32,469 bases of DNA from Lachnospiraceae bacterium (GTDB lineage: Bacteria; Bacillota; Clostridia; Lachnospirales; Lachnospiraceae): NCBI GenBank assembly GCA_017618195.1, contig JAFZUW010000014.1, forward strand, positions 1 to 32,469, in the 5' to 3' direction. Within the stretch, counting starts at the first letter, position 1. Every line of letters starts with the position of its first letter. Of the stretch, positions 125-15,315 are shown piece by piece. The position numbers were made by a program, and so were the translations under genes. The notes under the pieces are model-generated. The model was not told the origin of the DNA. It did not search any database and was given only the letters and a program-made list of their open reading frames with translations.

Positions 125-922
125 ATGGATGATGTGATAAATAATCTTCCGGAATCCATCCGGAGTTTAACAGAGGGCAAGCCCTACGAAACCAATGATT
201 TCGGCAAATCGGGCTCGCTTGTGCGAATCTACGACGACTTTGTTTTGAAGGTTGAGAAGGAACGCCCGCACATAGCGCAGATGGTCGAAGTCATGAAATG
301 GCTTGACGGGAAGCTGCCGGCACCGAAGGTTCTTGCGACCGAGGTGAAGGACGGCTACCGGTACCTTGTGATGAGCAAGGCGCGCGGTAGAATGGCTTGC
401 GACGAGTATTATATGACGCGTCCGGAGGAGCTGGTAACGCTTCTTGCGGAAGCATTGAAGATGCTTTGGAGTGTGGACATTACGGACTGTCCGAAGACCT
501 TTGATCTTAAGGCGGAACTCGAGGAGGCAAAGTACCGTATCGAGCATAACCTGGTGGACCTTGAGGACGCGGAGCCGGAAACCTTCGGCGAAGGCGGATT
601 CAAGAATCCGGAGGAACTGCTGCAGTGGCTGTATGACCACAAGCCGGTGTCGGATCCGGTATTCGCGCACGGCGATTTCTGCCTGCCGAACGTCCTTTTC
701 GAGGACGGCAAAGTGAGCGGCTTCATCGATCTCGGTGACGCCGGAATCGCAGACCGCTGGTACGACATCGCACTCGGTTACCGGAGCCTGAAGCACAACG
801 CCGACGGCACGTACGGCCATTATTACGCGGACGTTCACCCGGAAGACCTCTTCAAAAAGCTCGGGATTGAACCGGATTGGGAGAAGATTAAGTATTACAT
901 CCTTCTGGATGAGCTGTTCTAA
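125..922 (+). CDS. APH(3')-type aminoglycoside phosphotransferase homolog
   Basis: A 265-residue kinase-fold protein of the size of APH(3') enzymes, which phosphorylate the 3'-hydroxyl of kanamycin-type aminoglycosides using ATP in the cytoplasm. Visible motifs are the ATP-binding lysine (VLKVEK, K42), a candidate helix glutamate (E55), the catalytic loop HGDFCLPN (D184, N189) and the metal-binding aspartate in FIDLGDAG (D202). The C-terminus ends in DWEKIKYYILLDELF, which from memory matches the end of the mobile enzyme APH(3')-IIIa, whose terminal Phe carboxylate contacts the drug. ATG 125 is preferred over an in-frame ATG at 86 because GGGAG at 115-119 is correctly spaced. It heads the long co-directional run. 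The family call is firm; activity on aminoglycosides is inferred. Confidence 0.9.
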   Translation: MDDVINNLPESIRSLTEGKPYETNDFGKSGSLVRIYDDFVLKVEKERPHIAQMVEVMKWLDGKLPAPKVLATEVKDGYRYLVMSKARGRMACDEYYMTRPEELVTLLAEALKMLWSVDITDCPKTFDLKAELEEAKYRIEHNLVDLEDAEPETFGEGGFKNPEELLQWLYDHKPVSDPVFAHGDFCLPNVLFEDGKVSGFIDLGDAGIADRWYDIALGYRSLKHNADGTYGHYYADVHPEDLFKKLGIEPDWEKIKYYILLDELF

Positions 923-929
923 GGATGAA

Positions 930-952
930 CCGGCAGAACTCACTTCGGCCGG
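930..952 (+). other. Intergenic hairpin without T-tract
   Basis: CCGGC (930-934) can pair with GCCGG (948-952) across a 13-base loop between the APH-like and the first GNAT gene. No run of T follows, so it is not a classical terminator. It could be an mRNA processing or stability element, or chance. Confidence 0.35.
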
Positions 953-983
953 ATAAAGGATTGACATAGGGACGGAAAATGTT

Positions 984-1451
984 ATGGCTATCACGTTTAA
1001 AAAGATGACCGAAGCGGAGCTCGGCACGTTTATCCAAATGCGGATCACGCAGCTTACGGAGGAATACACCTCGGAAGGCAATGTTCCGCCGGAGGTTGAC
1101 CTTGAGGCGGCGCTTTGGGACTTCTATCACCGCCATATGGCCGACGGCACATTTGTCTCGTGGCTTGCGATGGACGGGGATAAGATTGTCGGAACGAGCG
1201 GCATGTCATTTGTCGAAAAGCCGCCGTATTTCAGCTGCCCGACGGGACGGTTAGGGCTGCTTTCGAGCATGTATACCGACCCGGCGTACCGCCGCATGGG
1301 CATCGCGAAGGAGCTTCTGCACCGCGTGGAGGAGGAGGCGAGAGCGTACGGCTGCGGAGCGGTGCAGATTACGGCGTCCGACATGGGTGTGAAGCTGTAC
1401 ACCGCGTACGGTTTTACGCACAACGGCAATTTCATGCAGTACAAGTTATAG
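984..1451 (+). CDS. GNAT family N-acetyltransferase
   Basis: This 155-residue protein has the single-domain GNAT layout: an N-terminal strand-helix (residues 3-30), a central beta hairpin around WLAMDGDKIVGTSG, the acetyl-CoA pyrophosphate loop RRMGIA (103-108) preceded by the strand LLSSMYTDPAY, and a C-terminal KLYTAYGF strand-turn typical of the family. It would transfer an acetyl group from acetyl-CoA to an amine on a small molecule or protein; the acceptor cannot be predicted. It lies 61 bases after the APH-like gene on the same strand. The ribosome site before ATG 984 is weak (GGGACGG), so translation may depend on upstream coupling. Confidence 0.88.
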   Translation: MAITFKKMTEAELGTFIQMRITQLTEEYTSEGNVPPEVDLEAALWDFYHRHMADGTFVSWLAMDGDKIVGTSGMSFVEKPPYFSCPTGRLGLLSSMYTDPAYRRMGIAKELLHRVEEEARAYGCGAVQITASDMGVKLYTAYGFTHNGNFMQYKL

Positions 1452-1457
1452 AAAAGG

Positions 1458-1520
1458 CCCGCGGACACATCAGCGGGGAAGAATGAATAGGAAAGGACCC
1501 CCGTGCCATTCCGGCGGGGG
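1458..1520 (+). other. Two consecutive leader hairpins; the second covers a Shine-Dalgarno
   Basis: CCCGC (1458-1462) pairs with GCGGG (1473-1477), and CCCCCG (1498-1503) pairs with CGGGGG (1515-1520). The 3' arm of the second hairpin is part of the only Shine-Dalgarno (GGGGGGAAAG) for the gene starting at 1530, so folding could hide it. Both hairpins follow a similar GAAAGG sequence, hinting at duplication. A regulatory effect is inferred from the pairing only. Confidence 0.45.
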
Positions 1521-1529
1521 GAAAGAATC

Positions 1530-2744
1530 ATGAAAGTTAAGAAGTTAGAGGGTGAGGAGCGGTTCGCCGCGTACCTGACCGCAGTATATTGCTTCCACAT
1601 GCGTGTAGACGACGTGGAAGAAAAGCGCGAGCGTCAGCTGAACGCCAAGGTTGAGGACTGGGGCGCATTTGACGACAACGATACGCTGATGGCGCGGATC
1701 ATCAACAACAAGTTCGAATTTTACGTGGACGGAACGGCGGTGAAGGCCGGCGGTATCGGCGCCGTGGCGACGCTTCCGGAGTACCGCAATTCGGGTGCAA
1801 TTCGCGAGATCTTTAAGGAATTGCTGCCCGAAGCGTACAGAAACGGCGAAGTGATTTCGGCGCTTTATCCGTTCAAGCATGAGTTCTACCGGAAGTTCGG
1901 TTACGAGACCGTAATCGGCTGGAGCCAGTACAGTCTCACGCCGGGGCTTCTGTGCCGCTACCGCTTTGACGGTGAAGTCGTAAAATGGAACCCGGGCGAG
2001 CCGGTCACCGATTTTATGACTGTCTACAACAGGTTTGCGCCGCAGTTGAACCTGGCGTACGCGCGCACGGAAGAGAAGATGGAGGAGCATCTGCACGTCG
2101 ATAAGCCGTATATCGACCGGAAGTTTTCGTATGTTTTGAAGCAGAACGGTGAGCCGATTGCGTATATTATCTTCACGGACGTTAAGAACAATCCGGCAGC
2201 CATCCTGAAGGTGGAGGAGTGCGCCTGGACGTGCCGCGACGGCTTCCGCGCACTGCTCGGTTTCTTGGCAAGATTCGAAGCGGATTACGGCACGATTGAG
2301 ATGCAGCTTCCTGCGGGAATTGACCTTCTTAGGATTATTGTTACGCCGGATGCGTACGCAATCAAAGAGACGGTGTTCCCGAACTTCATGCTTCGCGTCA
2401 TCAATGCAAAGAAGCTTCTTGAGACAATCAAAAAGCCTGTGGATTGCGACTTTACGATTAAAATATCTGACGAAATGATAGAGGAGAATAATCGTACCTA
2501 TCGTGTATTATCCGACCGCGTCGAGCTGGTCGGCGAACGGTTCACAGCGGACGGCGAAAATGCCGCGGACATTGCGTCGAAAGCAAACCTCGAGGTTAAC
2601 GTACGTGCCCTCGGGCAGCTCGCAATCGGAGCGCTTAACATGGACGAGGCAATGCTTCGCACGGATGTGACCGTGAACGCGAAGGAAGAGATGCTTCGGC
2701 GCGTTTTCATTCCGAAGAACATTTTCGTCGGAGAGCATTTTTAG
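1530..2744 (+). CDS. Eis-like multi-acetylating N-acetyltransferase (GNAT pair plus SCP2-like domain)
   Basis: This 404-residue protein has the architecture and length of the Eis family (mycobacterial Eis is about 402 residues). An N-terminal GNAT domain carries the acetyl-CoA loop at RNSGAIREIF (86-95). It is followed by HEFYRKFGY, whose Y125 fits the position of the Eis catalytic Tyr126. A second degenerate GNAT region and a C-terminal SCP2-like sterol-carrier fold follow (about 300-404). The chain ends in Phe, as in Eis, where the terminal carboxylate acts as general base. Eis acetylates several amines of aminoglycosides and some peptides. ATG 1530 is chosen over ATG 1503 because of the GGGGGGAAAG ribosome site, which sits inside a hairpin. 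Family is confident, substrate unknown. Confidence 0.88.
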   Translation: MKVKKLEGEERFAAYLTAVYCFHMRVDDVEEKRERQLNAKVEDWGAFDDNDTLMARIINNKFEFYVDGTAVKAGGIGAVATLPEYRNSGAIREIFKELLPEAYRNGEVISALYPFKHEFYRKFGYETVIGWSQYSLTPGLLCRYRFDGEVVKWNPGEPVTDFMTVYNRFAPQLNLAYARTEEKMEEHLHVDKPYIDRKFSYVLKQNGEPIAYIIFTDVKNNPAAILKVEECAWTCRDGFRALLGFLARFEADYGTIEMQLPAGIDLLRIIVTPDAYAIKETVFPNFMLRVINAKKLLETIKKPVDCDFTIKISDEMIEENNRTYRVLSDRVELVGERFTADGENAADIASKANLEVNVRALGQLAIGALNMDEAMLRTDVTVNAKEEMLRRVFIPKNIFVGEHF

Positions 2745-2768
2745 AGACTGTATTTAAGAGGCAATACC

Positions 2769-3911
2769 ATGTTCAATCATCACGACATCCAAAGAAATGC
2801 GTTTATGCTTCACGGACCGCTTGCACACCTCGGGTATGACTGGTGGTGGCATTCCTTTACGGCGCAGGACACGGAGACCGGTGAGGACAAACCGTTCTTC
2901 ATCGAGTATTTCATCTGCAATCCGGCGCTTGCTGAGGACGAGCCGGTATTCGGTCAGCTTCCGGCCAATCGGGAAGCAAAGAAGAAGCCGTCCTATCTGA
3001 TGGTCAAAGCCGGCTGCTGGGGCGAGGATCATTGCCAGCTGCATCGGTTCTTTCCCCTTGGGCAGGTACGGATTCACGGAGATGCTCCGTACGAGGTCGA
3101 GGCGGACGATTGTTATGCGTCCGAGACGCTGCTTCGCGGAAGCGTCACCGTTAGCCGTGAAGAGGCAGATGCGCATCCCGAGTGGATGTGTGATTCGGGC
3201 AGCATGTCGTGGGATTTGAAGCTGGATAAGCAGATTGCATTTAATGTCGGCTACGGCGCGAGCAAGCCGCTGCGGGTCGCGGAGGCATTTGCCATGTATT
3301 GGCACGCCGAAGGCATGAAGACCCTGTACGAGGGCACGATTACCTGTAACGGAAGGAAATTTATCGTGACGCCCGAGCGCAGCTACGGTTATGCGGACAA
3401 GAACTGGGGACGCGATTTCACGAGCCCGTGGGTCTGGCTCTCCTCAAACTGTCTTGTCAGTAAAAAGACAGGGAAGCAGCTCATGAACAGCGTGTTCGAC
3501 ATCGGCGGCGGACGCCCGAAGATTTACTTTGTCCCGCTCGACCGGAGACTGCTCGGCGTATGTTATTACGAGGGGAAAGAATACGATTTCAACTTCTCGA
3601 AACTGCATCTTCGCGTAAAGACACAATTCTCTTTCGAGGAGCAGGACGAACTCGTAATCTGGCATGTCCGGCAGGAAAATGTGCACGCGGTCATGGAAAC
3701 CGAGGTGAAATGCCGAAAGAAGGACATGCTTCTCGTGCAATACGAGGCGCCGGACGGACAGAAGCGCCACAACCGCCTTTTTAACGGCGGCAATGGTTGG
3801 GGAACGGTTAAACTATACGATAAAGACGGTGAGAAGCTGATATTGGTCGATGAGATTGAGGCAACGCACATCGGGTGTGAGTACGGGGAGTATTGCGAAT
3901 CGGCCGATTGA
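2769..3911 (+). CDS. Tocopherol cyclase-like / CrtC-type lipocalin-fold protein
   Basis: A 380-residue protein without signal peptide or membrane segments. The block YGYADKNWGRDF (206-217), followed by WVWLSSNCL, matches the conserved core of the tocopherol cyclase/hydroxyneurosporene synthase (CrtC, AttH) superfamily, two consecutive lipocalin-like beta barrels. The N-terminal LGYDWWWHSF element also fits the family. In plants and cyanobacteria members cyclise prenylquinols; anaerobic Clostridia do not make tocopherol, so here it more likely binds or modifies some hydrophobic metabolite. It starts 24 bases after the Eis-like gene with an AGAGG ribosome site. The fold assignment is good; the reaction is unknown. 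Confidence 0.75.
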   Translation: MFNHHDIQRNAFMLHGPLAHLGYDWWWHSFTAQDTETGEDKPFFIEYFICNPALAEDEPVFGQLPANREAKKKPSYLMVKAGCWGEDHCQLHRFFPLGQVRIHGDAPYEVEADDCYASETLLRGSVTVSREEADAHPEWMCDSGSMSWDLKLDKQIAFNVGYGASKPLRVAEAFAMYWHAEGMKTLYEGTITCNGRKFIVTPERSYGYADKNWGRDFTSPWVWLSSNCLVSKKTGKQLMNSVFDIGGGRPKIYFVPLDRRLLGVCYYEGKEYDFNFSKLHLRVKTQFSFEEQDELVIWHVRQENVHAVMETEVKCRKKDMLLVQYEAPDGQKRHNRLFNGGNGWGTVKLYDKDGEKLILVDEIEATHIGCEYGEYCESAD

Positions 3912-3932
3912 AGAAAGCATAAGGTGTTTCGA

Positions 3933-4724
3933 ATGGAAACAGCGAGTTGGGATGGACAGTGCAGGAACCTGACAGACGAATTCGTCCGGGAATCGAAACA
4001 GATTCTCGGCGATAACCTCGTCGGCATCTACCTGCACGGCTCGGCGGTCATGGGGTGCTTCAACCCTTTGAAAAGCGACATTGACCTGCTGGTCGTAACG
4101 GCAAATGACATGCCTGACGAGACAAAGCGAGCGTTCATGGATATGATTGTATCCCTGAACGCGCAGGCTCCCGCAAAAGGCATTGAGATGAGCGTCGTGA
4201 AGCGCGAGGTTTGTAAGCCTTTCGTGTATCCGACGCCGTTTGTGCTGCATTTTTCGGCGATGCATCTCGGGTGGTACCGGGACAATCCGGACGATTATGT
4301 AAAGAAGATGAACGGTACCGACAAGGACCTCGCGGCGCATTTTTCCGTGATCCGCGCAAGAGGCGTGTGCCTGTACGGCGCGCCGGTTTCGGATGTATTC
4401 GGAGAGGTGCCGGCCGAAAACTATATGGATTCGCTTTGGTACGATATCGCCGATGCTGAGGACGATATCGCCGAAGATACGATGTACCTTACCTTGAACC
4501 TTGCGCGCGTGCTTGCCTGGCAGCAGGAAGGAAAAGTCCTTTCGAAGCAGGAAGGCGGCGAGTGGGGGCTTATGAACCTTCCGGAGAAGTATCACGAGCT
4601 TCTTCGGAAAGCACTTTCGGAATATCGCGGCGAAACGCCGGGGTATGATATAGGCGCTGCGAAAGAATACGCAGGCGCTATGTTACGTCTGATCGGAAAT
4701 AATATGCAGCCGCAGAACGAGTAG
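3933..4724 (+). CDS. AadA/ANT(3'')-ANT(9)-like aminoglycoside nucleotidyltransferase
   Basis: A 263-residue protein with an N-terminal nucleotidyltransferase domain of the DNA polymerase beta fold. The signature HGSAVMG (35-41), followed by SDIDLLVV with D49 and D51, gives the GS...DxD metal-binding motif. The C-terminal half (about 130-255) is helical, as in the DUF4111-type domain of AadA enzymes that adenylate streptomycin and spectinomycin. An alternative GTG start at 3924 exists, but AAGGTG at 3921-3926 is better placed for ATG 3933. It follows the tocopherol-cyclase-like gene by 21 bases. Family is clear; whether it confers resistance is not known. Confidence 0.87.
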   Translation: METASWDGQCRNLTDEFVRESKQILGDNLVGIYLHGSAVMGCFNPLKSDIDLLVVTANDMPDETKRAFMDMIVSLNAQAPAKGIEMSVVKREVCKPFVYPTPFVLHFSAMHLGWYRDNPDDYVKKMNGTDKDLAAHFSVIRARGVCLYGAPVSDVFGEVPAENYMDSLWYDIADAEDDIAEDTMYLTLNLARVLAWQQEGKVLSKQEGGEWGLMNLPEKYHELLRKALSEYRGETPGYDIGAAKEYAGAMLRLIGNNMQPQNE

Positions 4725-4738
4725 GAGAGCATGACTCC

Positions 4739-4757
4739 CGCGTGTAAAGAGCACGCG
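4739..4757 (+). other. Intergenic hairpin without T-tract
   Basis: CGCGTG (4739-4744) and CACGCG (4752-4757) form a 6-base-pair stem with a 7-base loop in the 76-base gap between the nucleotidyltransferase and the peptidase E homolog. A second small TTTCG/CGAAA stem follows before the ribosome site. Neither looks like a terminator. Confidence 0.4.
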
Positions 4758-4800
4758 ATGCGGATTTCGGACGACGAAAGACCTATCAAGGAGAAGAAAA

Positions 4801-5475
4801 ATGAATACGAATATGAACGCAGCCCTTCTCGGGCTTTTCAGCGGCTTCCCCGACCGTCGTTTTAACGACGCGCTCGCGGAGGTCTTAAAAGAGAACCTTC
4901 CGAAACGGGACCTGATTGTATTTATCAGCGCCGATCCGGAGAATTTTGAGCAGAATGATGACGACCGGGACGGCATGCACCGGATGCTTGCGGAATTCGG
5001 CATGGCATTTGCCGTAAAGCACGTGATTGACCGCCGTACCACATCGGAGGAGGCTGTAAGGCTTATCCGTGAAGCGGACTGCATCTGGCTCATGGGCGGC
5101 GAATCGACGTTGCAGATCGAGTTGATCCGCGACCTCGGGATTGATACGGAACTTCATAAGAGCAAGGCCGTAATCCTCGGCGTGAGCGCGGGCTCGATGA
5201 ACCTCGGCCGCAACGTCGCTTATATCTGGGACAATCCGCACTGGTATGAGGCGCTCGGCCTTACGAACATTACGATTAAGTCGCACTATGAAGAAGGCGA
5301 ATGGTTCGTTCCGAGACTGAAGGAAATGTCCATGACGCATCCGATTGTTGCGATGGAGGACATGAGCGCAATCTATGTGAAAGGCGACAGGATCTTTAAA
5401 GTCGGAAATATGCATCTGATCGATCATGGTGAGATCGGTCCCCTTACCGACAAGGATCTGGAGGCGATTAGATAG
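4801..5475 (+). CDS. Peptidase E (S51 family, class I glutamine amidotransferase fold) homolog
   Basis: A 224-residue cytoplasmic protein of the S51 family, whose founding member PepE cleaves Asp-Xaa dipeptides. The nucleophile elbow GVSAGSMNL (S129) is clear, preceded by the conserved WLMGGES turn at about 96-102. Likely partners are D144 (YIWDNPHW) and H162 (IKSHYEEGEW), placed like the PepE triad. Start ATG 4801 follows AAGGAG with good spacing. In this neighbourhood it may act on a peptide-type compound or in general peptide turnover. Related cyanophycinase-like proteins share the fold, so the exact substrate is open. Confidence 0.85.
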   Translation: MNTNMNAALLGLFSGFPDRRFNDALAEVLKENLPKRDLIVFISADPENFEQNDDDRDGMHRMLAEFGMAFAVKHVIDRRTTSEEAVRLIREADCIWLMGGESTLQIELIRDLGIDTELHKSKAVILGVSAGSMNLGRNVAYIWDNPHWYEALGLTNITIKSHYEEGEWFVPRLKEMSMTHPIVAMEDMSAIYVKGDRIFKVGNMHLIDHGEIGPLTDKDLEAIR

Positions 5476-5501
5476 CGGATGGTATTCTATCAACTATCCG
5501 C
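5475..5501 (+). other. Intergenic hairpin beginning at the peptidase stop codon
   Basis: GCGGAT (5475-5480), whose first base is the last base of the stop codon, pairs with ATCCGC (5496-5501) across a 15-base loop. No T-tract follows, and the ribosome site of the next gene lies just downstream. Confidence 0.4.
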
Positions 5502-5527
5502 AAAGAAAAATGAAAAGGAGACCCGAA

Positions 5528-6040
5528 ATGGAAAAGGGAAAGATTATATTTCTAAACGGAGTCACAAGCTCCGGCAAGACATCGATCGTCGAAGCGCTTC
5601 AGGAGCGCAGAGACCAATTCTTTTATGTTGTTGCGAACGATCTGTTCCAGGAGATGGTCGGCGAGCAGTATCTCGAGGAGAACTACTGGAAGTACCTTTC
5701 GGAAGTGATCATCCTGATGTATCACACCGCGAAACTGTATTCCGACCTTGGGAAAAATGTGCTGATCGACGGCATCCTTGTCGAGCGCGACGAGATCAAG
5801 CCGCACTATGAGCAGCTTATGGAAATCATGAAGGACAGCCCGTTAAGTATCGTCGAGGTATATTGCCCGCTTGACATCTGCAGGCAGCGAAACATCGAGC
5901 GCGGCGACCGTTATGAGAGCCAGTCGGACGAGCAGGCGGAGCTGATGAGCAAGGATATCAAATACGCGATGCGTGTGGACACGAGCGTGAGCTCTCCCGC
6001 GGAGTGCGCGGAGCAGATCGTGAAGAAAATATTTGCATGA
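5528..6040 (+). CDS. Chloramphenicol phosphotransferase-like (CPT family) P-loop kinase
   Basis: A 170-residue P-loop kinase. The Walker A motif GVTSSGKTS (11-19) is followed by ANDLF with D38, at the position of the catalytic Asp37 of Streptomyces venezuelae CPT. The lid region RNIERGDRYES (121-131) and the final DTSVSSPAECAEQI segment are typical of this family. CPT phosphorylates the 3-hydroxyl of chloramphenicol, but most homologs in other bacteria have unknown substrates. Upstream in-frame ATGs (5426, 5510) lack a good ribosome site; AAGGAG at the right distance selects ATG 5528. It is the third gene in this run from a family known for antibiotic inactivation. Confidence 0.85.
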   Translation: MEKGKIIFLNGVTSSGKTSIVEALQERRDQFFYVVANDLFQEMVGEQYLEENYWKYLSEVIILMYHTAKLYSDLGKNVLIDGILVERDEIKPHYEQLMEIMKDSPLSIVEVYCPLDICRQRNIERGDRYESQSDEQAELMSKDIKYAMRVDTSVSSPAECAEQIVKKIFA

Positions 6041-6052
6041 TTGAAAATGAAG

Positions 6053-6074
6053 CGGGACGCCCGACGGCGTTCCG
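6053..6074 (+). other. Stable intergenic hairpin with 4-base loop
   Basis: CGGGACGCC (6053-6061) pairs with GGCGTTCCG (6066-6074), nine pairs including one G-T, closing a CGAC loop. It lies between the kinase stop and the GGGAGG ribosome site of the isochorismatase-family gene. No T-tract follows, so a translational or mRNA-stability role is more likely than termination. Confidence 0.5.
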
Positions 6075-6094
6075 TAATAAGGGAGGAAACCATT

Positions 6095-6610
6095 ATGGTA
6101 TTATTGGCAATCGATCTTCAAAAGGCTTTGGTAGTGGAAGATCTTTATAACTTTGAAGGTTTTGTGGAGAATATGAAGAAGCTTCTTTCGGAAGCGAGAA
6201 AGCGCGGCGTGGAGGTCATCTACGTGCGTCACGACGCGGGCGAAGGAAGCGGCATGACTTACGGCGACGAGGACTTTGAAATCTACGACGAGCTTGCCCC
6301 GAAGGCAGGCGAGAAGGTTTTCGTAAAGACCGTCAACAGCAGCTTCAGCAACAAGGAACTTTGTAAGTATCTGGAGGAAAAGGGCGAGGATACCGTTATC
6401 ATCGCGGGACTTCAGACCAATTACTGCATTGACGCGACGATCAAGTCCGCATTTGACCGCGGCTATAACGTGATCGTTCCGGAAGGCTGCAACTCCACAT
6501 TTGACAATGACTACATGACCGGCGAGACAACGTACCGCTATTACAACGAGGACGTGTGGGATTCGGTCGCGGATGTGGTCGCAATGGACGAGGTGTTTGA
6601 GACAGCATGA
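6095..6610 (+). CDS. Isochorismatase-family cysteine hydrolase
   Basis: A 171-residue protein with the Asp-Lys-Cys triad of the isochorismatase/nicotinamidase superfamily: D7 in LAIDLQKA, K78 in EKVFVKTVNSSF, and C111 in GLQTNYCIDAT. The cis-peptide region before the cysteine (VIIAGLQTN) is also conserved. Members hydrolyse nicotinamide, N-carbamoyl compounds, or isochorismate vinyl ethers; the short N-terminus and lack of an extra carrier-protein domain argue for a small amidase, not a siderophore enzyme. ATG 6095 has a GGGAGG site; the upstream in-frame ATGs do not. Its stop overlaps the next start in ATGA (6607-6610), so the two are translationally coupled. Confidence 0.87.
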   Translation: MVLLAIDLQKALVVEDLYNFEGFVENMKKLLSEARKRGVEVIYVRHDAGEGSGMTYGDEDFEIYDELAPKAGEKVFVKTVNSSFSNKELCKYLEEKGEDTVIIAGLQTNYCIDATIKSAFDRGYNVIVPEGCNSTFDNDYMTGETTYRYYNEDVWDSVADVVAMDEVFETA

Positions 6611-8813: not shown

Positions 8814-8817
8814 TCGG

Positions 8818-8893: not shown

Positions 8894-9736
8894 ATGATGA
8901 AAAACAGGACAGATGGGAAGGTTTCGGGAAAGAGAAGACTGTTTCTGAAAGCAGTAACCGTAATGATTCTTCTGATATTGTCATGCAGTCTTACAGGCTG
9001 CTCATCCAGAGAAAAGAAAAAAGCAGAGAAAACAGCAAAAGGATATGCAAAACAGTACAAAGGCGATTTTGAGAAGGCGGTTTCGCAGACTTTCGGGTCC
9101 GATGCCGAGCTGACGAATGTGGAAGGGAAAGTTAAAAGATGGATCGGAGAACTTTCGTTTACTCCCACATATGAAGCGTTAACGGAATTAAGCGGAATCA
9201 TGAAAAAAGACGGCGGCATATACCATGTCACATACAATTTCAAGAGCAAGGTTCTGTTATCGGATTACTATAACGCGGCGATTATGGACAGCCTGATAGA
9301 TACCCTCGGACTTGACCGGTCCAAGATTATTTACACAAAGTGCTACGACAGTTTTAATAAGACGAATTGGATTGAGTATCCCGCCGAGGTCGTGTCAATC
9401 AGAGAAGCATTGGATGACCGCTATTATGTGGAATTCTATATAGCCACATCGGAGCCTCTGGCGGATAAGACCTTTGATGTGTATTTTATGCAGTGCGACG
9501 CGCATAACAGATTACTCGAAGTAAATATATTCAGTTCCGAGGAGTTCAGCAATCTGGATCATTTTAAGTCAAATTGTCAGACACTCGAAATATCGAATAC
9601 GGGAGGCAACTCCACAGTCAGATTTGAGAAAGAGACCAAAGACATCTTTTCGCTATATAATCTCAAAGACTTTGCCGCGCTCCGCGGGCACTTCGAGAAC
9701 GACAGCGGTGACGGCGGTACAGTGATAAGAAGATAA
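8894..9736 (+). CDS. Putative lipoprotein of unknown function
   Basis: A 280-residue protein with a type II signal peptide: a basic start (KNRTDGKVSGKRR), a hydrophobic stretch (about 20-34) and a lipobox LTGC with the lipidated cysteine at about residue 36, followed by SSREKKK. The mature part is mixed alpha/beta with no motif I recognise, so it should sit on the outer face of the membrane. It has its own GGAGGGG ribosome site. The base composition is visibly more AT-rich than flanking genes (AGA, AAA and ATA codons are frequent), and it is the only exported protein in the array. Both facts suggest a later insertion. Confidence 0.75.
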   Translation: MMKNRTDGKVSGKRRLFLKAVTVMILLILSCSLTGCSSREKKKAEKTAKGYAKQYKGDFEKAVSQTFGSDAELTNVEGKVKRWIGELSFTPTYEALTELSGIMKKDGGIYHVTYNFKSKVLLSDYYNAAIMDSLIDTLGLDRSKIIYTKCYDSFNKTNWIEYPAEVVSIREALDDRYYVEFYIATSEPLADKTFDVYFMQCDAHNRLLEVNIFSSEEFSNLDHFKSNCQTLEISNTGGNSTVRFEKETKDIFSLYNLKDFAALRGHFENDSGDGGTVIRR

Positions 9737-9778
9737 GACTTGCATGCGGAAATACAAGGAAAATGGGGAGGTAACCGG

Positions 9779-10726
9779 ATGGAACTCTGGGATTTGTATG
9801 ACAGTGAAAGAAAGCCCCTCGGGCGTACGCATGTGCGCGGCGAGGCATTTGGCGAAGGCGAATACTATGTATGCGTCGAGGTGTGGGTTCGGAACTCGAA
9901 GGGCGAGTTTCTGATTCAGAAGCGTCACCCGAACAAGAAGGCGGGCAACCAGTGGGAGTTCGCGGGCGGCGGAACGCTTGCGGGCGAGACCACGCTTCAG
10001 TCGGCTGTCCGGGAGATCGGGGCGGAGACCGGCATCGTCTGCAAAGGGCATGAACTCACATATTTCGCAACTTATCAGCATAAGAACTATTTCCTCGACC
10101 TGTATCTGCTTCGAAGGGATATGGATTGTAAGGATTATGTGCCTCAGCCCGGGGAGACTACCGAGGCGCGCTGGGCAACGGAAGAGGACATTCTGAAGCT
10201 GATGGAAAGCGGAGAGTTCGTATACTCGGTCGGCGCCCGGTTCGGAATGTACCGGGATATTGTCCGGGAGCTTCCGGCGGAGCCCACGTTTCTGGATGTA
10301 AGCGACCTTAAGTCGGATGAGATATTCCTGAAGCTTACCCGTCTCGGCGAAGCAAAGCCTGAGAAGCAGTGGGTACCGGCGTACTATTTTGAAATCTGTC
10401 TTTTAGACGGAACGAAGATCGGAATCTGTGACCTTCGGATCGGTCATAACGATAAGCTTTATGTCGGCGGAAACATCGGCTATGAAATCGACGGGCCGTA
10501 CCGCGGGCATCACTATGCGGCAAAGGCGTGCGAACTGCTCTTTAAACAGGCGCGGAAGCACAATCTTAGTTATGTGATCATAACCTGCGTTCCGACCAAC
10601 GACGCGTCTGCGCGCACCTGTGAGCTGGCCGGCGGAACGTATCTTGAGACCGTTAGTATCCCGGAGGATAACGAGATGTACGCGGAAGGCAAGCGTCAGG
10701 TGAAGGTGTACCGGTTTGAACTGTAA
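9779..10726 (+). CDS. Nudix hydrolase-GNAT acetyltransferase fusion
   Basis: A 315-residue two-domain protein. Residues 1-165 resemble the Nudix domain of isopentenyl-diphosphate isomerase-like proteins (start ELWDLYDSERKPLG). The Nudix box runs from G64 with E70, R78 and E79, but the signature reads REIGAETG, so A82 stands where the first glutamate of the EE pair is expected; E83 is kept. Residues about 170-315 form a GNAT domain with YEIDGPYRGHHYA (acetyl-CoA loop 241-247) and CVPTNDASARTCELAGG. ATG 9779 follows GGGGAGG. The fusion suggests sequential or alternative modification of related substrates, which is inference. Confidence 0.85.
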   Translation: MELWDLYDSERKPLGRTHVRGEAFGEGEYYVCVEVWVRNSKGEFLIQKRHPNKKAGNQWEFAGGGTLAGETTLQSAVREIGAETGIVCKGHELTYFATYQHKNYFLDLYLLRRDMDCKDYVPQPGETTEARWATEEDILKLMESGEFVYSVGARFGMYRDIVRELPAEPTFLDVSDLKSDEIFLKLTRLGEAKPEKQWVPAYYFEICLLDGTKIGICDLRIGHNDKLYVGGNIGYEIDGPYRGHHYAAKACELLFKQARKHNLSYVIITCVPTNDASARTCELAGGTYLETVSIPEDNEMYAEGKRQVKVYRFEL

Positions 10727-10741
10727 AGGCGTCTGCCGTGA

Positions 10742-10792
10742 AAGCTTTCCGATAACATGACGGGGTGATGTCATGTTCGTTATGGTAAGCTT
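10742..10792 (+). other. Long imperfect inverted repeat between genes
   Basis: AACATGAC (10754-10761) pairs exactly with GTCATGTT (10770-10777) around an 8-base loop. Outer arms AAGCTT (10742-10747 and 10787-10792) and partly matching CCGATAA/TTATGG sequences extend the stem with a bulge. It lies between the Nudix-GNAT stop and an AGGAGG ribosome site. There is no T-tract. Confidence 0.55.
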
Positions 10793-10818
10793 AACGGAAA
10801 TATCAGGAGGTTATGACG

Positions 10819-11181
10819 ATGAACTGCGACTGGGTTGATGAGTATCTTTTAAAAAAGCGCGGAGTGACAAAGGATCTTCAGGCGGAATGGAACTGGGAAC
10901 GTTACTATGTCGGAGGGAAAATGTTCGCTGCAGTCTGCAGCGACAATGACAACAAGCCCTATTACATCACGCTCAAACTGGATCCGCTCGAAGGGGAAAT
11001 CCTACGGAAGCAGTACGAGGACGTTATCCCGGGTTACTACATGAATAAGACGCACTGGAACTCGATCAAGGTGAACGGAAACCTGGCGGACGACACGGTT
11101 CGGGACATTCTGGATCACTCCTATGACGTAGCGTTCGGAAGTCTCACCAAGAAGAAGCAGAAAGAGATCCTGGAAGGGTAG
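10819..11181 (+). CDS. YjbR/MmcQ (CyaY-like fold) family protein
   Basis: A 120-residue protein matching the MmcQ/YjbR family by size and by motifs: an N-terminal helix (WVDEYLLKKRGVT), the strand pair around WNWERYYVGGKMFAAV, YYITLKLDPLEGEILRKQY, and the characteristic GYYMNKTHWNSIKV segment before a final helix. The family has a CyaY-like fold and was annotated as DNA-binding, but its biochemical role is not settled. It is often found beside methyltransferases and acetyltransferases. The ATG at 10819 is eight bases from AGGAGG (10805-10810); ATG 10813 is too close to be used. Confidence 0.85.
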   Translation: MNCDWVDEYLLKKRGVTKDLQAEWNWERYYVGGKMFAAVCSDNDNKPYYITLKLDPLEGEILRKQYEDVIPGYYMNKTHWNSIKVNGNLADDTVRDILDHSYDVAFGSLTKKKQKEILEG

Positions 11182-11212
11182 AAATTGAAAATATTGGGAT
11201 GGAGGAAGAACA

Positions 11213-11977
11213 ATGGAATACCGTAAGATTTTTGACACGATACCGGAGCAGTTTGACAGGTTTCGTCCGCGCTACAGCCCGGAGCTGTTTGCGGACCTGA
11301 TCGCGTATGCGGGGATCGGTCCCGATAAGACGGTTCTTGAGCTCGGACCGGGAACGGGACAGGCGACGGAGCCGATTTTGAAGACCGGCTGCGATTACCA
11401 CGCGATCGAACTCGGAGAGAACTTCTATGCGAAGATGAAGGAGCATTTTGACTCCTACCCGAATTTCCATATCGTGAACGATGACTTCATCACGCACGAT
11501 TTCGGAGAGCAGAAGTTCGACATGATCTATTCCGCGGCAACGATCCAGTGGATTCCGGAGCGGATTGCTTTTCCGAAGACGCTTTCCCTGTTAAAGCCCG
11601 GCGGAACGCTTGCGATGATGCTCACGAACGGAGATTACAAGTCTCCGAATGAGAACCTGTATAACAAGATTCAGAAGGTTTACGACGAGTACTATAAGCC
11701 CGTGACGAGTTACAAGGACATGAAGGAGCCGTTTGATTACAGGCATGCGACGGACTACGGTTATGTGGATTTCGAGCGGCGCGATTTCTACGGAAAGCGT
11801 GTCTTCAACGCGGACGATTATGTATCATACTGCGGCACCCACAGCGACCATATTGCAATCCCGGAGCCTACCAGGACGAAGTTCTTCGAGATGTTACGAA
11901 AGACGGTTAAGGACAACGGAAACAAGGTCGAGTTTTGGGATACCTATATCCTTTTTCTCACAAAGAAACCGCTGTAA
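11213..11977 (+). CDS. Class I SAM-dependent methyltransferase
   Basis: A 254-residue methyltransferase. Motif I VLELGPGTGQATEP (41-54), the motif II acidic residue E68 (YHAIELGENFY), motif IV FDMIYSAATIQWIPE and post-motif LLKPGGTLAMML are all present. Proteins of this type methylate small molecules; the N-terminal DTIPEQFDRFRPRY start is common in Firmicutes members. It lies 31 bases after the YjbR-like gene with a GGAGG ribosome site. The end of the gene overlaps the first unit of a short tandem repeat. Confidence 0.88.
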   Translation: MEYRKIFDTIPEQFDRFRPRYSPELFADLIAYAGIGPDKTVLELGPGTGQATEPILKTGCDYHAIELGENFYAKMKEHFDSYPNFHIVNDDFITHDFGEQKFDMIYSAATIQWIPERIAFPKTLSLLKPGGTLAMMLTNGDYKSPNENLYNKIQKVYDEYYKPVTSYKDMKEPFDYRHATDYGYVDFERRDFYGKRVFNADDYVSYCGTHSDHIAIPEPTRTKFFEMLRKTVKDNGNKVEFWDTYILFLTKKPL

Positions 11978-12048
11978 GCGGGGATGGAAAATGACAGAAA
12001 ACCGCGGTAAGCGGAAAGGATAACTGACACGGAAACCGCGGTAAGCGG
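11966..12048 (+). repeat. Three tandem units spanning the methyltransferase stop codon
   Basis: AAACCGCTGTAAGCGG (11966-11981), and AAACCGCGGTAAGCGG at 11999-12014 and 12033-12048, recur at 33- and 34-base spacing. Unit 1 includes the last codons and stop of the upstream gene; units 2 and 3 are copies of that stop region. Each unit can form a small CCGC/GCGG hairpin around GGTAA. Confidence 0.85.
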
Positions 12049-12095
12049 AAATGATATTCGTTCGCAGCTGCGGCTGTGGACGGAAAGCGGGAACT

Positions 12096-12722
12096 ATGAT
12101 CATCAAAGAAGAAATCAACGGAACCGAAGTCGAATGCGAAACCGGGGAGTACTATTTTTCGCCGAAGGGCGTCGACAGGGGTACCCGGCTCATGCTCGAA
12201 ACCGTGCCGGCAGCGGACGGTGACAAGGTGCTCGATCTCGGATGCGGCTACGGCGTTGTCGGAATCTACGCGGCGAAGAAGCTCGGCGGAGAGCATGTCG
12301 TTATGTGTGACGTCCTCGAAGAAGCCGTGACGTTATCGAAAGCCAATCTTACGCGAAACGGAATCGAAGGCGTACGCGTGCTGCAGAGCGACGGTCTCAG
12401 AAGCATCGAAGACCGTGATTTCACATTGATTCTGTCAAACCCGCCTTACCACACCGACTTCTCGGTCGCCAGGGAATTCATCGAGGACGGTTTTAAGAAG
12501 CTTAAGATCGGCGGACGCATGGCGCTTGTCACGAAGCGGCTCGACTGGTACCGAAACAAGCTGAAGACCGTGTTCGGCGGCGTGAAGGTATTCGAGAAAG
12601 AGGACTATTATATCTTCTTAAGCGAGAAGCGGACGCCGCGTGTTGAAAAAGAGAAGAAAACGAAGACGTTGTCGAAGAAACTGCAGCGCAAATACGGAAA
12701 CAAAGGAAAGAATGGAAAATGA
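12096..12722 (+). CDS. RsmC-like N-methyltransferase (NPPY type)
   Basis: A 208-residue class I methyltransferase with motif I VLDLGCGYGVVG (45-56), acidic motif II residue D72 (VMCDVLEEA) and the exocyclic-amine motif IV SNPPYHT (114-120). NPPY marks N-methyltransferases, and the pattern best fits the C-terminal half of RsmC, which makes m2G1207 in 16S rRNA; single-domain RsmC-like proteins are common in Firmicutes. The last 30 residues are very lysine-rich (from KRTPRVEKEKK), which suits RNA binding. An upstream in-frame ATG at 12051 lies inside the tandem repeat and is less likely. The stop overlaps the next start (ATGA, 12719-12722). Confidence 0.82.
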   Translation: MIIKEEINGTEVECETGEYYFSPKGVDRGTRLMLETVPAADGDKVLDLGCGYGVVGIYAAKKLGGEHVVMCDVLEEAVTLSKANLTRNGIEGVRVLQSDGLRSIEDRDFTLILSNPPYHTDFSVAREFIEDGFKKLKIGGRMALVTKRLDWYRNKLKTVFGGVKVFEKEDYYIFLSEKRTPRVEKEKKTKTLSKKLQRKYGNKGKNGK

Positions 12723-13246
12723 CGACATATTATGAAGACGAGAGCATCCGGATCCGAAGTATGATCCCCGAGGACGCAAAGATAATCTTTGATACCTACC
12801 AATCCTACGGCTGGCATCCGGATATGGCCAATTACGAAAACTATTATAAAGAGCAGGAATCGGGAGACCGCATCGTATTTGTCCCCGAGTATAAGGGAGA
12901 GGTTGCAGGCATCTGCACGCTCGTACTGTGCCCGACCGAGGGACCGCTTGCCGACAAAGGCTGGCCGGAGATTGTGGACCTGTGCGTGTTCTTCCACCTG
13001 CACAACAAAGGAATCGCGAACAGGCTTTTAGACGCAGCGGAGAGGGAAGCGTCAAAGCTTACGGACCACGTGTACCTTGCCGTCGGCGTGCATTCCGGAT
13101 ACGGTCCGGCGCAGCGCATCTACGTGAAGCGCGGCTATATGCCCGACGGAAGCGGCGTATGGTATCAGGGAAAGCAGCTTGACCAGTACGCGCCGTGCGT
13201 CAACGATGACGACCTGCTTCTGTTCTTCTACAAGAAAGTGAGATAA
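12719..13246 (+). CDS. GNAT family N-acetyltransferase
   Basis: A 175-residue GNAT. Visible are the N-terminal IRIRSMIPEDAKII strand-helix, YKGEVAGICTLVL, the motif A region EIVDLCVFFHLHNKGIANRL with the acetyl-CoA loop HLHNKGIA, and the C-terminal PAQRIYVKRGYMPDG typical of the family. The acceptor is unknown. It is translationally coupled to the RsmC-like gene by a 4-base overlap, which could mean the pair is one unit, but nothing in the sequence shows a shared substrate. Confidence 0.88.
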   Translation: MTTYYEDESIRIRSMIPEDAKIIFDTYQSYGWHPDMANYENYYKEQESGDRIVFVPEYKGEVAGICTLVLCPTEGPLADKGWPEIVDLCVFFHLHNKGIANRLLDAAEREASKLTDHVYLAVGVHSGYGPAQRIYVKRGYMPDGSGVWYQGKQLDQYAPCVNDDDLLLFFYKKVR

Positions 13247-13264
13247 GGAGAATTACCCCAAAGA

Positions 13265-13966
13265 ATGATACTGATATTCGACTATTTCGAAACAATCGTC
13301 ATCAGCAAAACGCATGATTTCAACCGTGCGCTCCGCGTGTTCTGGGAGAAATACTATCAGGACCGGTGCACCTTTGAGGAAATGAAGGAACTCGGCGAGG
13401 AACTCTTCGTTGAACTGATGGATCTTCATCATCAGGGCATTGAGTTCCCGTTCGTAAAGGAGGAACTTCCGCGTTATGCGGAGCGTTTCGGCGGCGAAAC
13501 CGTTCCGATGAGCATAGACGAGGAAGCCGATTTGCTTATGACGGCAAATGCCATGGAACCCGCCCCGGGTGTTGCGGAGATGCTTTCAAAGCTTCAGGCA
13601 AAGGGAATCCCGATGTACGTTCTTTCGAACAGCAGCTTCAGTTCAGATGCGCTTTCGTGCATTTTAAACAGGCTCGGAATCGGACAGTACTTTACGAAAG
13701 TATGGTCAAGCGCCGAATACGGCCGCACCAAGCCGGACCGGGGTTTCTTTGAGCAGGCGATTGCGACGGCGCTTTTGGAGCATCCGGAAGAGAAACGGGA
13801 AGATATTACATTTGTCGGAGATATTTATGAAACCGACGTGACCGGCGCATTCAACGCGGGAATCAGGGCCGCGTGGATTGACCGCGATGGCGCGCGCGAC
13901 GAGGCGCACCCGGCGACGTACGTGATCTCCGAAACAAGCGAATTAACCGACATATTAGGAGTATAG
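13265..13966 (+). CDS. HAD superfamily hydrolase with Phe at the acid/base position
   Basis: A 233-residue HAD hydrolase. Motif I reads IFDYFET: nucleophile D6 is kept, but the usual second Asp (general acid/base) is F8. Motif II is S121 (YVLSNSSF), motif III K156 (YGRTKPDRG), and motif IV GDIYETD (D186, D191). A helical cap lies at about 17-95. Haloacid dehalogenases and phosphonatases also lack the second Asp, so this may be a non-phosphatase member or a slow phosphatase. The start is fixed by motif I being at residue 6; the AAGGAG at about 13245 is rather distant (14 bases). It is followed by a GNAT gene after two bases. Confidence 0.85.
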   Translation: MILIFDYFETIVISKTHDFNRALRVFWEKYYQDRCTFEEMKELGEELFVELMDLHHQGIEFPFVKEELPRYAERFGGETVPMSIDEEADLLMTANAMEPAPGVAEMLSKLQAKGIPMYVLSNSSFSSDALSCILNRLGIGQYFTKVWSSAEYGRTKPDRGFFEQAIATALLEHPEEKREDITFVGDIYETDVTGAFNAGIRAAWIDRDGARDEAHPATYVISETSELTDILGV

Positions 13967-13968
13967 AG

Positions 13969-14553
13969 ATGAATTATGAAATTGTGCCGCTCCCGAAGGA
14001 GGAGTGGAAAGGAGTACCCGTTCCGCTTGATTACACGACGGAATACTATTATGACATGGAGCTTACGACCGATGAAACCGGTTTCCATGCCGAGATGAAA
14101 TTAAAGAAGTTTGACGAGCCCGTGACGCACCTTTCGACGGATTATGATTTTCCGGATACGCTGTACGCGGACCATTGGGAAGGTGCCGAGGCGTTCGGCG
14201 TTGTAGCTGAGGAAGACGGTAAGAAGGTCCTCAAGGCATGCATCGAGTGCTGGAGCGAGGAATGGAGCAACCGTCTTATCGTAACGGAGCTCTGGGTTGC
14301 GGACGAGCTGCACCGTCAGGGCATCGGAACAAGACTTATGAACCGCGTCAAGGAGCGGGCAAGGGAGCTGGGACGCCGCGCAATCATACTCGAGACGCAG
14401 TCCTGCAACGTGCGTGCAATTGCGTTCTATAAGGCAATGGGCTTTGAGATGATCGGATTTGACACCTGCTGCTACACGAACTGCGACATCGAACGTAAGG
14501 AGGTCCGCTTCAATCTCGGATTCTTCCTTGATAAGAGAAACGCCAGATGGTAG
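13969..14553 (+). CDS. GNAT family N-acetyltransferase (streptothricin-acetyltransferase-like)
   Basis: A 194-residue GNAT with VTELWVADELHRQGIGTRLM (acetyl-CoA loop HRQGIGT), followed by AIILETQSCNVRAIAFYKAMGF and GFDTCCYTNCD. The ETQ...NVRAI.FY..MGF and GFD..CY pattern resembles streptothricin acetyltransferases (Sat/YyaR type), which acetylate the beta-lysine amine of streptothricin. That comparison is from memory, and close relatives have other or unknown substrates. It begins two bases after the HAD stop, with an AGGAG ribosome site inside that gene, so it is likely coupled. Confidence 0.85.
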   Translation: MNYEIVPLPKEEWKGVPVPLDYTTEYYYDMELTTDETGFHAEMKLKKFDEPVTHLSTDYDFPDTLYADHWEGAEAFGVVAEEDGKKVLKACIECWSEEWSNRLIVTELWVADELHRQGIGTRLMNRVKERARELGRRAIILETQSCNVRAIAFYKAMGFEMIGFDTCCYTNCDIERKEVRFNLGFFLDKRNARW

Positions 14554-14577
14554 ATATTTCGAACGGAGAGAATATGC

Positions 14578-15315
14578 ATGCGTTATGAAATAACGGAAAC
14601 ACACAGAAATATGTCCAAAGCGAAGCGGAAGGCGCTCGAACAGTTCTTCCGGGAAGTAAAGGGTATCCCTGCGGATATCGACTGCTCCTGTCAGATTGAT
14701 TTCTGCACGGATTACGAGCGTCAGTTCGCCGTCAAATGGTTCGAAGTCCTTTCGTGGGACGAGGGTAAGATTGTCGGCTACCTAAGATGCATGCGAGACC
14801 CGGAATCGGTCACCCGCTGGTATGTAGGCGACGTTCACGTCCGTAAGGCATATTGGCAGCAGGGCATTGCGACGCAGATGTATGCGGAACTTTTTGCCGT
14901 TCTGCAGGATTACGATTCGACGGAAAAGGTGGTCGTTGCCATTCATAAGGACAACGTGAAATCCATCGGTCTTCATACGAAGCTCGGTTTCCGCGATACG
15001 AAGGAGCCTTGCGTATTTGCGGACTTCTACGCGGCTCCGGACGAGACCTGCTACGAAAAGCTTCTGTTTTCGGTAATGGCTCCGCCGCGGGATGTTGAGG
15101 TCGGGGTGAAGTATATCCTGCCGGTGTGGACCGAATGGAAGAAGGAGTGCGGCGCATGGTCCTGCGAGGAAGAGGCGAAGAGCAGCCTTATCGAAGTTCT
15201 GAAAAAAGCGCAGGACGGAGCCGTCCGGTTTGAGGTAATCTGGAACGGAATGAATCTGTGCGGCTTCCGCTTTAACGACGGAACGGAGCACGTTTATAAC
15301 CGGCTCAAGGCATAA
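14578..15315 (+). CDS. GNAT acetyltransferase with C-terminal extension
   Basis: A 245-residue protein. Residues about 20-155 are a GNAT domain: KIVGYLRCMRDPES, WYVGDVHVRKAYWQQGIATQ (loop WQQGIAT), VVVAIHKDNVKSIGLHTKLGF. The remaining 90 residues (about 160-245) form an extra domain with FEVIWNGMNLCGFRFNDGTE that I do not recognise. ATG 14578 follows GGAGAG. It is the last gene of the long + strand run; the next gene has its own promoter. Confidence 0.82.
   Translation: MRYEITETHRNMSKAKRKALEQFFREVKGIPADIDCSCQIDFCTDYERQFAVKWFEVLSWDEGKIVGYLRCMRDPESVTRWYVGDVHVRKAYWQQGIATQMYAELFAVLQDYDSTEKVVVAIHKDNVKSIGLHTKLGFRDTKEPCVFADFYAAPDETCYEKLLFSVMAPPRDVEVGVKYILPVWTEWKKECGAWSCEEEAKSSLIEVLKKAQDGAVRFEVIWNGMNLCGFRFNDGTEHVYNRLKA

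Follow-up and report, generated by a model that had tools for sequence, protein, structure and literature searches.

A one-strand array of modifying enzymes

The DNA analysed here (the window) is a stretch of 32,469 nucleotides from a Lachnospiraceae bacterium (GenBank assembly GCA_017618195.1, contig JAFZUW010000014.1, forward strand). It carries 20 plus-strand genes between position 86 (or 107) and 15315, most of them in small-molecule-modifying families. A sequence-only reading of this DNA had described the run from 125 to 15315 as a locally assembled store of about 20 one-strand genes with short gaps or overlaps, and the layout was borne out: with script-chosen starts the intergenic gaps are −4 to 118 bp, 10 of the 19 being 50 bp or shorter and two being overlaps. 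Position 125 proved to be a later in-frame ATG of the gene for an aminoglycoside phosphotransferase (APH), and the array extends further left. The window holds the right part of a larger array cut by the contig end, and the head of that array lies on another contig, C71, of the same genome. On the window contig (C50) and C71 together, the array covers ~23.5 kb of 2,751 kb. Its head, a leader followed by a gene for an ABC-F ATPase, lies outside the stretch described earlier and gives the best clue to function.

We compared 22 genomes of one genus, 13 of them good (≥90% complete, ≤5% contaminated), and read seven arrays: the own one (G000) and those of G001, G002, G005, G007, G008 and G011. Genes were called by a codon-based script on fetched surroundings; the caller is fitted to this genus and overlooks genes in genomes of low GC content. 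Families were scanned with Pfam and with NCBIfam at curated cut-offs, and RNA with Rfam, a covariance model and a pattern search. Thirty window proteins were scanned, with the gene at 17703-18233 and five genes at 26298-32467 outside the scan. Neither integrase nor transposase was found among the 30, in agreement with the sequence-only reading, and Pfam supports the families that it had listed: APH, AadA_C, chloramphenicol phosphotransferase (CPT), Eis-like, GNATs, three methyltransferases, two Nudix proteins, isochorismatase and HAD. The genes are as follows, all on the plus strand, with their presence among the seven arrays.

3-89, plus: C-terminus of c7_267, an array gene without a Pfam family; frame 3 matches the c7_267 C-terminus of G001; cut by the contig end
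107-922, plus: APH(3')-like aminoglycoside O-phosphotransferase (NCBIfam NF033068); starts 86 or 125 also possible; family in 7/7
984-1451, plus: GNAT GN1 (PF00583, 1.4e-14); 7/7
1530-2744 (longest frame from 1503), plus: Eis-like three-domain GNAT (PF13527, PF17668, PF13530); 7/7
2769-3911, plus: tocopherol-cyclase-like protein (PF14249, weak, 30.5 bits against a cut-off of 26.6); 1/7, the own array
3933-4724 (longest frame from 3924), plus: AadA-like nucleotidyltransferase (PF13427, 1e-27); 5/7
4801-5475, plus: Peptidase S51, PepE-like (PF03575); 6/7
5528-6040 (longest frame from 5426), plus: CPT-like kinase (PF07931, 1.8e-28); 5/7
6095-6610 (longest frame from 6041), plus: isochorismatase-family hydrolase (PF00857); 7/7
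6607-7521, plus: GN2, 304 residues with a C-terminal GNAT domain (PF00583); 7/7, and 12/22 genus genomes
7584-8348 (longest frame from 7518), plus: methyltransferase MT1 (PF08241); 7/7
8364-8813, plus: Nudix hydrolase (PF00293); 4/7
8894-9736, plus: lipoprotein-like protein of no family, signal-like start and LTGC read from the sequence; 1/7
9779-10726 (longest frame from 9740), plus: Nudix-GNAT fusion (PF00293, PF13302); 6/7
10813-11181, plus: YjbR/MmcQ-family protein (PF04237); 2/7
11213-11977, plus: methyltransferase MT2 (PF08242); 3/7
12096-12722 (longest frame from 12051), plus: RsmC-like small-domain methyltransferase (PF05175, 2e-39); 6/7
12719-13246, plus: GNAT GN3 (PF00583); 6/7
13265-13966, plus: HAD hydrolase (PF13419); 3/7
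13969-14553, plus: streptothricin-acetyltransferase (Sat)-like GNAT (PF00583); 7/7, at another place in the order than here
14578-15315, plus: GNAT GN5 (PF00583), last gene before a 209-bp gap; 2/7

The right end of the array is placed at GN5 with some uncertainty; a helix-turn-helix gene and the gene hypV come next here and in G018. Acetyltransferase domains are concentrated in the array: 10 of the 36 Acetyltransf_1 matches in the own genome (domains, not genes) fall inside the ~23.5 kb, where 0.31 would be expected.

The array is headed by a leader and an ABC-F gene

The leader consists of a promoter, a Shine-Dalgarno sequence, an upstream open reading frame (uORF) of 22-24 codons that ends mostly in [AT]SRRx[AV]x (for example MIVTKRFTKTHLYIAVASRRNAE), and an intrinsic terminator. 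In the own copy on C71, a Shine-Dalgarno, a uORF of 24 codons, a hairpin in the middle and the terminator precede the ABC-F ATPase gene; this leader copy has no match in Rfam. A uORF with a strong Shine-Dalgarno and a terminator precedes the ABC-F gene in all 12 readable heads of the genus and in both of those found in other genera. The head of G018, split between contigs, is not among the readable ones, while a run of N hides the terminator end of G013, whose promoter was not located. For G007 the script took a longer frame, and the uORF was counted from the ATG behind the Shine-Dalgarno. In the 12 readable genus heads the terminator lies 49-56 bases after the uORF stop, and gaps in the uORF alignment come in threes. 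Ten of 11 aligned leaders have a TTGACA...TATAAT promoter 89-100 bases upstream of the uORF; for the own genome, the distance from a promoter-like sequence to the uORF is 273 bases.

In total, 16 leader copies were found in 15 genomes, namely 13 of the genus (G013 twice), G382 and G398. In 15 of the 16 an ABC-F gene, or the start of one, follows; in the remaining case, G018, the leader is at the end of one contig and the ABC-F gene near the start of another. The leader pattern matches 13 of the 22 genus genomes, exactly those with the ABC-F gene, apart from one extra chance match in G002, and the backward control of the pattern gave no match in the 22 genomes. Two weak covariance-model matches were dismissed as false, one (G000:C26) sitting at the end of an unrelated gene and the other (in G493) being a terminator without such a uORF. 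The two copies of leader and ABC-F in G013 lie on two contigs (L134:1-698 and L059:506-2418); since this metagenome-assembled genome (MAG) is 4% contaminated, the second may come from a second strain.

The ABC-F protein has two ABC domains with intact LSGGE/LSGGQ and LLLDEP/LILDEP motifs. Among solved structures, its best matches carry the names ExpZ (8buu) and lincosamide-streptogramin A resistance protein (7nhl); we take them to be VmlR2 and Vga(A), respectively. By sequence it is of the resistance (VmlR/Vga) kind, closest to VmlR and Vga(A), without being a certified member, because the G002 orthologue scores 342 bits in NCBIfam ribo_prot_ABC_F, below the cut-off of 380.

Gene order is conserved while content varies

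Pieces of window positions 1-20000 were matched in all 22 genus genomes in a DNA search, often grouped on a few contigs each among the matches listed. Close relatives with named records are Lachnospiraceae and Lachnoclostridium MAGs, several of them from rumen or omasum samples. The recurring order is ABC-F, c1, c4, c5, c6, c8, c9, c17, c7, APH(3'), GN1, Eis-like, followed by AadA-like, PepE-like, CPT-like, isochorismatase, Sat-like, GN2 and MT1. Beyond MT1 the content varies more and includes Nudix, HAD, GNAT, RsmC-like and Nudix-GNAT genes. In the left part, c4 is a double GNAT, c5 a histidine phosphatase, c6 and c17 are GNATs, c8 is PRK06761-like and c9 APH-like, and c1 and c7 have no Pfam family. 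The own genome departs from this order in that its Sat-like gene is placed after the HAD gene. Its ABC-F gene and seven further array genes are on C71, which ends inside c17, and the window starts inside c7; from the gene order in relatives, C71 and the window contig would be neighbours with an unsequenced gap between them.

Of 28 own-array families, 11 occur in all seven arrays (ABC-F, c4, c5, c6, APH, GN1, Eis-like, isochorismatase, GN2, MT1 and Sat-like). Any two of these arrays have 18-27 single-copy families in common, and 14-26 of these keep their order, compared with shuffled maxima of 10-13. Lineage-specific genes, present in one or few species, lie between the core genes. The one-strand runs that start from the ABC-F gene in the six other genomes comprise 29-46 genes and 23.9-37.0 kb, the run of G007 reaching the end of the fetched stretch.

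Among the 13 good genomes, leader, ABC-F, APH and GN2 are all in the same nine, and none of the four was found in G004, G006, G017 or G019. G019 still has an RsmC-like match and part of the Nudix-GNAT gene, and G020 and G021, incomplete genomes without a detected head, show array pieces, both statements holding among the matches listed. Over the whole genus, APH is matched in 11 of the 22 genomes.

The flanks differ more than the arrays do. On the left side, 6 of the 12 readable heads have a gene cluster, d1-d5, at a distance of 1-12 genes: 1-7 in G005, G009, G011, G014 and G015, and 12 in G002. The fetched left flanks of G000, G001, G007, G008 and G010 do not contain it, and in G013 the contig begins with the head. 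The right flanks form different groups. With the left cluster at only half of the heads and right flanks that differ, a fixed chromosomal site is not supported. The idea of a locally assembled store thus keeps its clustering and its gene gain and loss but not a fixed site. The sequence-only reading had named scattering of these genes in related genomes as what would refute it; no scattering was found in the seven arrays, while two own contigs, C49 and C31, hold homologues of other species' array genes. These are further one-strand runs of modifying enzymes (G000:C49:1-40000, L120 and L121; G000:C31:78000-117999, L125 and L139), with homologues of array-locus genes of G013 or G001 (c13, a triple GNAT, d12 and c22) or of other relatives (c19). 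No leader was found at either run.

The head occurs in other genera with other cargo

The covariance model was run over 299 genomes of the family (298 genera), with filters that lose weak matches. Strong full-length matches occurred in the own genus, represented by 2 of the sampled genomes, and in G382 and G398. In both of the latter, the next gene is an orthologue of this ABC-F, with 87 and 78% identity. Behind it in G382 come c4, c5 and c6 (78-82%), then a CPT-like gene (84%) in fifth place after the leader, and a GNAT (79%) that resembles the second half of the HAD-GNAT fusion c11. In G398 the ABC-F gene is followed by an Eis-like gene (66%), GN2 (80%) and a distant PepE relative (29%), and two genes further by a long protein with a stretch resembling the window HAD. 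Short arrays in two genera with other subsets of the families are, at the level of sequence, the best sign that head and cargo belong together.

Homologues of array genes are also close together in G301 (L127; Sat-like, GN2 and c7) and G258 (L132; c9, c24 and GN2), with no leader match in the fetched stretches. Ten loci around Eis homologues from Treponema and other Clostridia were read without such an array being seen, although two of them, L040 and L041, have c5_235 homologues close to Eis.

Predicted alternative pairing in the leader

The sequence CCTCCCGG at the uORF end has three predicted, mutually exclusive partners, namely the uORF Shine-Dalgarno, a ribosome at the uORF end, and CCGGAAGG atop the terminator. 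Pairing with the Shine-Dalgarno is kept in 96% of alignment cells, and pairing with CCGGAAGG in 116 of 117 cells (99%). CCTCCCGG seems to be kept as RNA, because its change to CCTCCTGG in G382 alters the peptide (SRR to SWR) and keeps U-G pairing.

When the ribosome is upstream and the transcript extends just past the terminator loop, CCTCCCGG blocks the terminator top with a predicted probability of 0.75-0.87 in 11 of 11 leaders, and of 0.86 and 0.87 in the leaders of the two other genera. Only 35 of 2,200 shuffles reach the real value, and complementing CCTCCCGG reduces it to 0-0.03. In the truncated fold, the left arm of the terminator is paired upstream with a probability of 0.28-0.63 when the ribosome is at mid-uORF, and 0.00-0.20 when it is at the SRR codons. 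The leader is likely an attenuator of the ABC-F gene and looks like a sensor of ribosome poisoning.

Possible continuity of the array as a transcription unit

Strong terminators were found at 1 of 261 same-strand junctions in the seven arrays versus 12 of 121 in their flanks (P = 6.5e-6) and 7 of 114 on four other contigs of the own genome. Array gaps have a median of 35 bp, and 62% are 50 bp or shorter, versus 46-48% in the controls. Few terminators and short gaps favour one unit without proving it. The window contains 15 promoter-like sites on both strands, versus a shuffled mean of 12.0 (standard deviation 4.0), and a looser scan of both strands in window 1-16400 gave terminator- and promoter-like sites at about the shuffled rate. 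The rule of the leader would extend, with odds somewhat better than even, over the whole array.

Resistance families in the window

The sequence-only reading had counted five families known for antibiotic inactivation. The resemblance stands for all five, but a curated cut-off is passed by APH(3') alone, with 253 bits versus 205 in NCBIfam NF033068. This protein keeps the catalytic motifs HGD....N and IDLG, and its nearest PDB entries are the aminoglycoside 3'-phosphotransferases 2bkk/1j7i. Among plasmid-borne enzymes the closest is APH(3')-IIIa (46% over 211 residues), whereas the window gene sits in a chromosomal-looking, genus-conserved array and its activity is predicted.

The AadA-like protein scores 105 versus 193 bits for AadA/ANT(3''), keeping the active-site SDID (SDIDLLV) of solved AadA; the CPT-like protein 57 versus 250, with a Walker A motif read from the sequence; the Sat-like protein 41 versus 420 for the streptothricin acetyltransferase family; and the Eis-like protein 41 versus 576, with the three-domain architecture present and a weak match to Eis2 in the PDB. 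By these scores and motifs the four are to be seen as relatives of resistance enzymes. MT2 has weak KsgA/Erm similarity below the cut-offs. A shared detoxification role of the array enzymes, proposed earlier, is an interpretation that now gains backing from the regulatory context. In sum, the sequence-only reading was right in its observation and half right in its interpretation.

Other features in and around the arrays

The lipoprotein-like gene at 8894-9736, which has no Pfam or NCBIfam match, sits among cytosolic-looking enzymes and is not in the other six arrays. Elsewhere in the genus, the tocopherol-cyclase-like gene is represented only by a 26-residue match in G018. Two sets of repeats lie in the window: a 24-base direct repeat occurring three times, spaced 33-34 bases (11966-12056), between MT2 and the RsmC-like gene, and a 25-base direct repeat (88%) over the GN2 end and MT1 start (7498-7574), possibly a scar of gene insertion.

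Fused enzymes are frequent in the arrays, with several GNAT domains per protein, HAD-GNAT and Nudix-GNAT (window 9740-10726) combinations, as well as uracil-DNA-glycosylase-like plus Nudix and tyrosine phosphatase-HAD (fusion-gene loci L049:11933-13447, L049:747-1922, L049:3061-4029 and L048:12843-14834). In G382 and G018 the GNAT half of the HAD-GNAT protein is encoded separately.

A tRNA-Leu gene (17522-17601, minus strand), the only Rfam match at gathering level in the window, lies immediately to the right of the array. A pair of genes for a heavy-metal-domain protein and a P-type ATPase is right of the array in the window (20531-22699) and in G008, and left of the head in G001 (G001:C21); a more distant pair lies left of the second leader copy in G013 (G013:C11, L134).

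Discussion

We conceive of the array as a long co-directional superoperon of detoxification enzymes that would be inducible by ribosome stress and is placed behind the leader and the ABC-F gene. From sequence, we give this reading a probability of about 0.58; it is one in which we infer co-transcription, induction and substrates. Without drug, a ribosome would reach the uORF end and cover CCTCCCGG, upon which the terminator would form and transcription would stop. If the uORF is untranslated, CCTCCC would pair with the uORF's own Shine-Dalgarno, again with terminator formation and a stop. A drug that stalls the ribosome early in the uORF would leave CCTCCCGG free to pair with CCGGAAGG atop the nascent terminator, the middle hairpin lying inside. 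The terminator would then be delayed, and the polymerase would continue past it through the ABC-F gene and the array behind. The ABC-F protein would clear the drug from ribosomes, and the downstream kinases, nucleotidyl-, acetyl- and methyltransferases and hydrolases would modify drugs or repair metabolites, the cargo having changed by single-gene gain and loss behind the fixed head. We hold more tentatively, at somewhat under even odds, a bolder proposal that a single ribosome-stalling attenuator rules a 24-37 kb superoperon of ~28-46 genes, with a growing set of drug- and metabolite-modifying enzymes particular to the genus, in which new enzymes would gain antibiotic control by inserting behind the fixed leader-ABC-F head, as a cis-linked counterpart of WblC/WhiB7.

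Several observations count against such a superoperon. With the ribosome at the uORF stop, the left arm of the terminator is still paired upstream with a probability of 0.09-0.51 in the truncated fold, so the off state is not clean. The equilibrium fold of the complete leader gives the terminator a probability of 0.76-1.00 at every ribosome position, and a simple equilibrium switch was not seen; timing, that is, co-transcriptional folding, must therefore decide, as in other attenuators. Covariation is absent for the antiterminator (0 two-sided changes) and weak for SL-1 and the terminator (80 and 58 of 500 shuffles reach the score). One strong terminator lies inside the G011 array, which also has a 624-bp gap, gaps of up to 311 bp occur in the other arrays, and a 10-of-12 promoter-like site (8337-8365) precedes the Nudix gene. 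Array genes occur without the leader in other genera, and GNAT-rich one-strand runs do so in the own genome. Two incomplete head-bearing genomes lack matches, G010 for APH and GN2 and G018 for APH, and four of the five resistance-like families miss their curated cut-offs.

Alternatively, the leader would control only the ABC-F gene and perhaps the first few genes, the rest being a co-directional neighbourhood of small genes with several promoters of its own, held together by conserved order and not by a common transcript. All seven arrays have gaps exceeding 150 bp, which speaks for this, as do the promoter-like site before the Nudix gene, the internal terminator of G011 and the leaderless runs. 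Nevertheless, strong terminators are scarcer and gaps shorter in the arrays than in the controls, head, APH and GN2 are all-or-none in good genomes, and CPT-like, Eis-like and GN2 genes lie close behind the same head in other genera; we consider this limited control unlikely, though it is the most serious competitor. Less probable still is that the enzymes are metabolite-repair or housekeeping modifiers grouped by growth under translation stress, with a resistance flavour of mere family resemblance. The low scores of four families and the many members of general families (Nudix, isochorismatase, HAD, YjbR and RsmC-like) speak for it, against which stand the APH(3') that passes its cut-off with motifs kept, a head ABC-F nearest to VmlR and Vga(A), and the recurrence of APH, Eis-like and Sat-like genes in every array and of AadA-like and CPT-like genes in five.

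A set of self-resistance or tailoring genes of a natural-product pathway is very improbable: tailoring-like families are present (methyl- and acetyltransferases and the tocopherol-cyclase-like protein), but no biosynthetic core enzyme was found among the 20 window array genes and 30 scanned representatives of the relatives' arrays and flanks, and content differs by single genes between species. We also give next to no credence to a gene-cassette array (an integron without integrase) or another mobile resistance island. Such an array would account for one-strand single-gene units of variable content. However, attC sites are about 57-141 bases long, and 10 of the 19 window gaps are too short for them, two junctions being overlaps. 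Of at least 60 repeat families, the 20 largest included no element common to many gaps. Gene order is conserved across species, and no integrase was seen among the scanned genes, on which grounds, together with the gap sizes and with no dedicated attC search run, a cassette array was rejected. For a plasmid-borne island, a near-identity plasmid search gave no match, distant plasmid DNA being outside its reach.

The superoperon that we favour can be set beside known systems. The vmlR leader layout of Bacillus subtilis was worked out with mutants (PMC9226507), and cplR of Clostridioides difficile was reported to be attenuated at the levels of both transcription and translation (PMC10201436). The proposed likeness lies in a uORF in the first stem-loop, which here would act as anti-antiterminator, a pause hairpin, an intrinsic terminator, a predicted antiterminator with the pause hairpin at its apex, and then an ABC-F gene of the antibiotic resistance (ARE) type. 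The uORF differs, having 22-24 codons with a conserved end here and being the tripeptide MIN in vmlR. Unlike both, a 24-37 kb array lies behind the head here, the own copy has no Rfam match, and induction is predicted only. The WblC/WhiB7 regulon of Actinobacteria (PMC7157823) includes 16 GNATs and 7 methyltransferases besides Eis, Eis2 and ABC ATPases, with the regulator gene under uORF attenuation. There, as proposed here, translation inhibitors are sensed with uORF-mediated attenuation and many modifying enzymes are the output; a transcription factor links those genes in trans, whereas here they would be joined in cis. Integrons and CALINs (clusters of attC sites lacking integron-integrases) resemble the array in one-strand single-gene units and variable content, but half of the junctions here have no room for attC, no integrase was seen among scanned genes, and the order is conserved. 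We found no report of such an array, or of a leader heading one, in searches of open-access papers. The leader type is known for single ABC-F genes; what is new is that the genes form one physical array, that this array grows in an open-ended way behind a fixed head, and that the attenuator sequence lacks an Rfam match.

If the superoperon is real, one short RNA decides when a whole enzyme collection is made, and operons of great length can be under an attenuator like that of vmlR. Position would predict function, making genes such as GN2, c7_267, c4_371 and c6_374 candidates for new antibiotic-modifying or ribosome-repair activities, and the array would be a natural shelf of yet-undiscovered antibiotic-modifying activities. 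Its variation between species would show how bacteria of the ruminant gut assemble a store of resistance genes on the chromosome.

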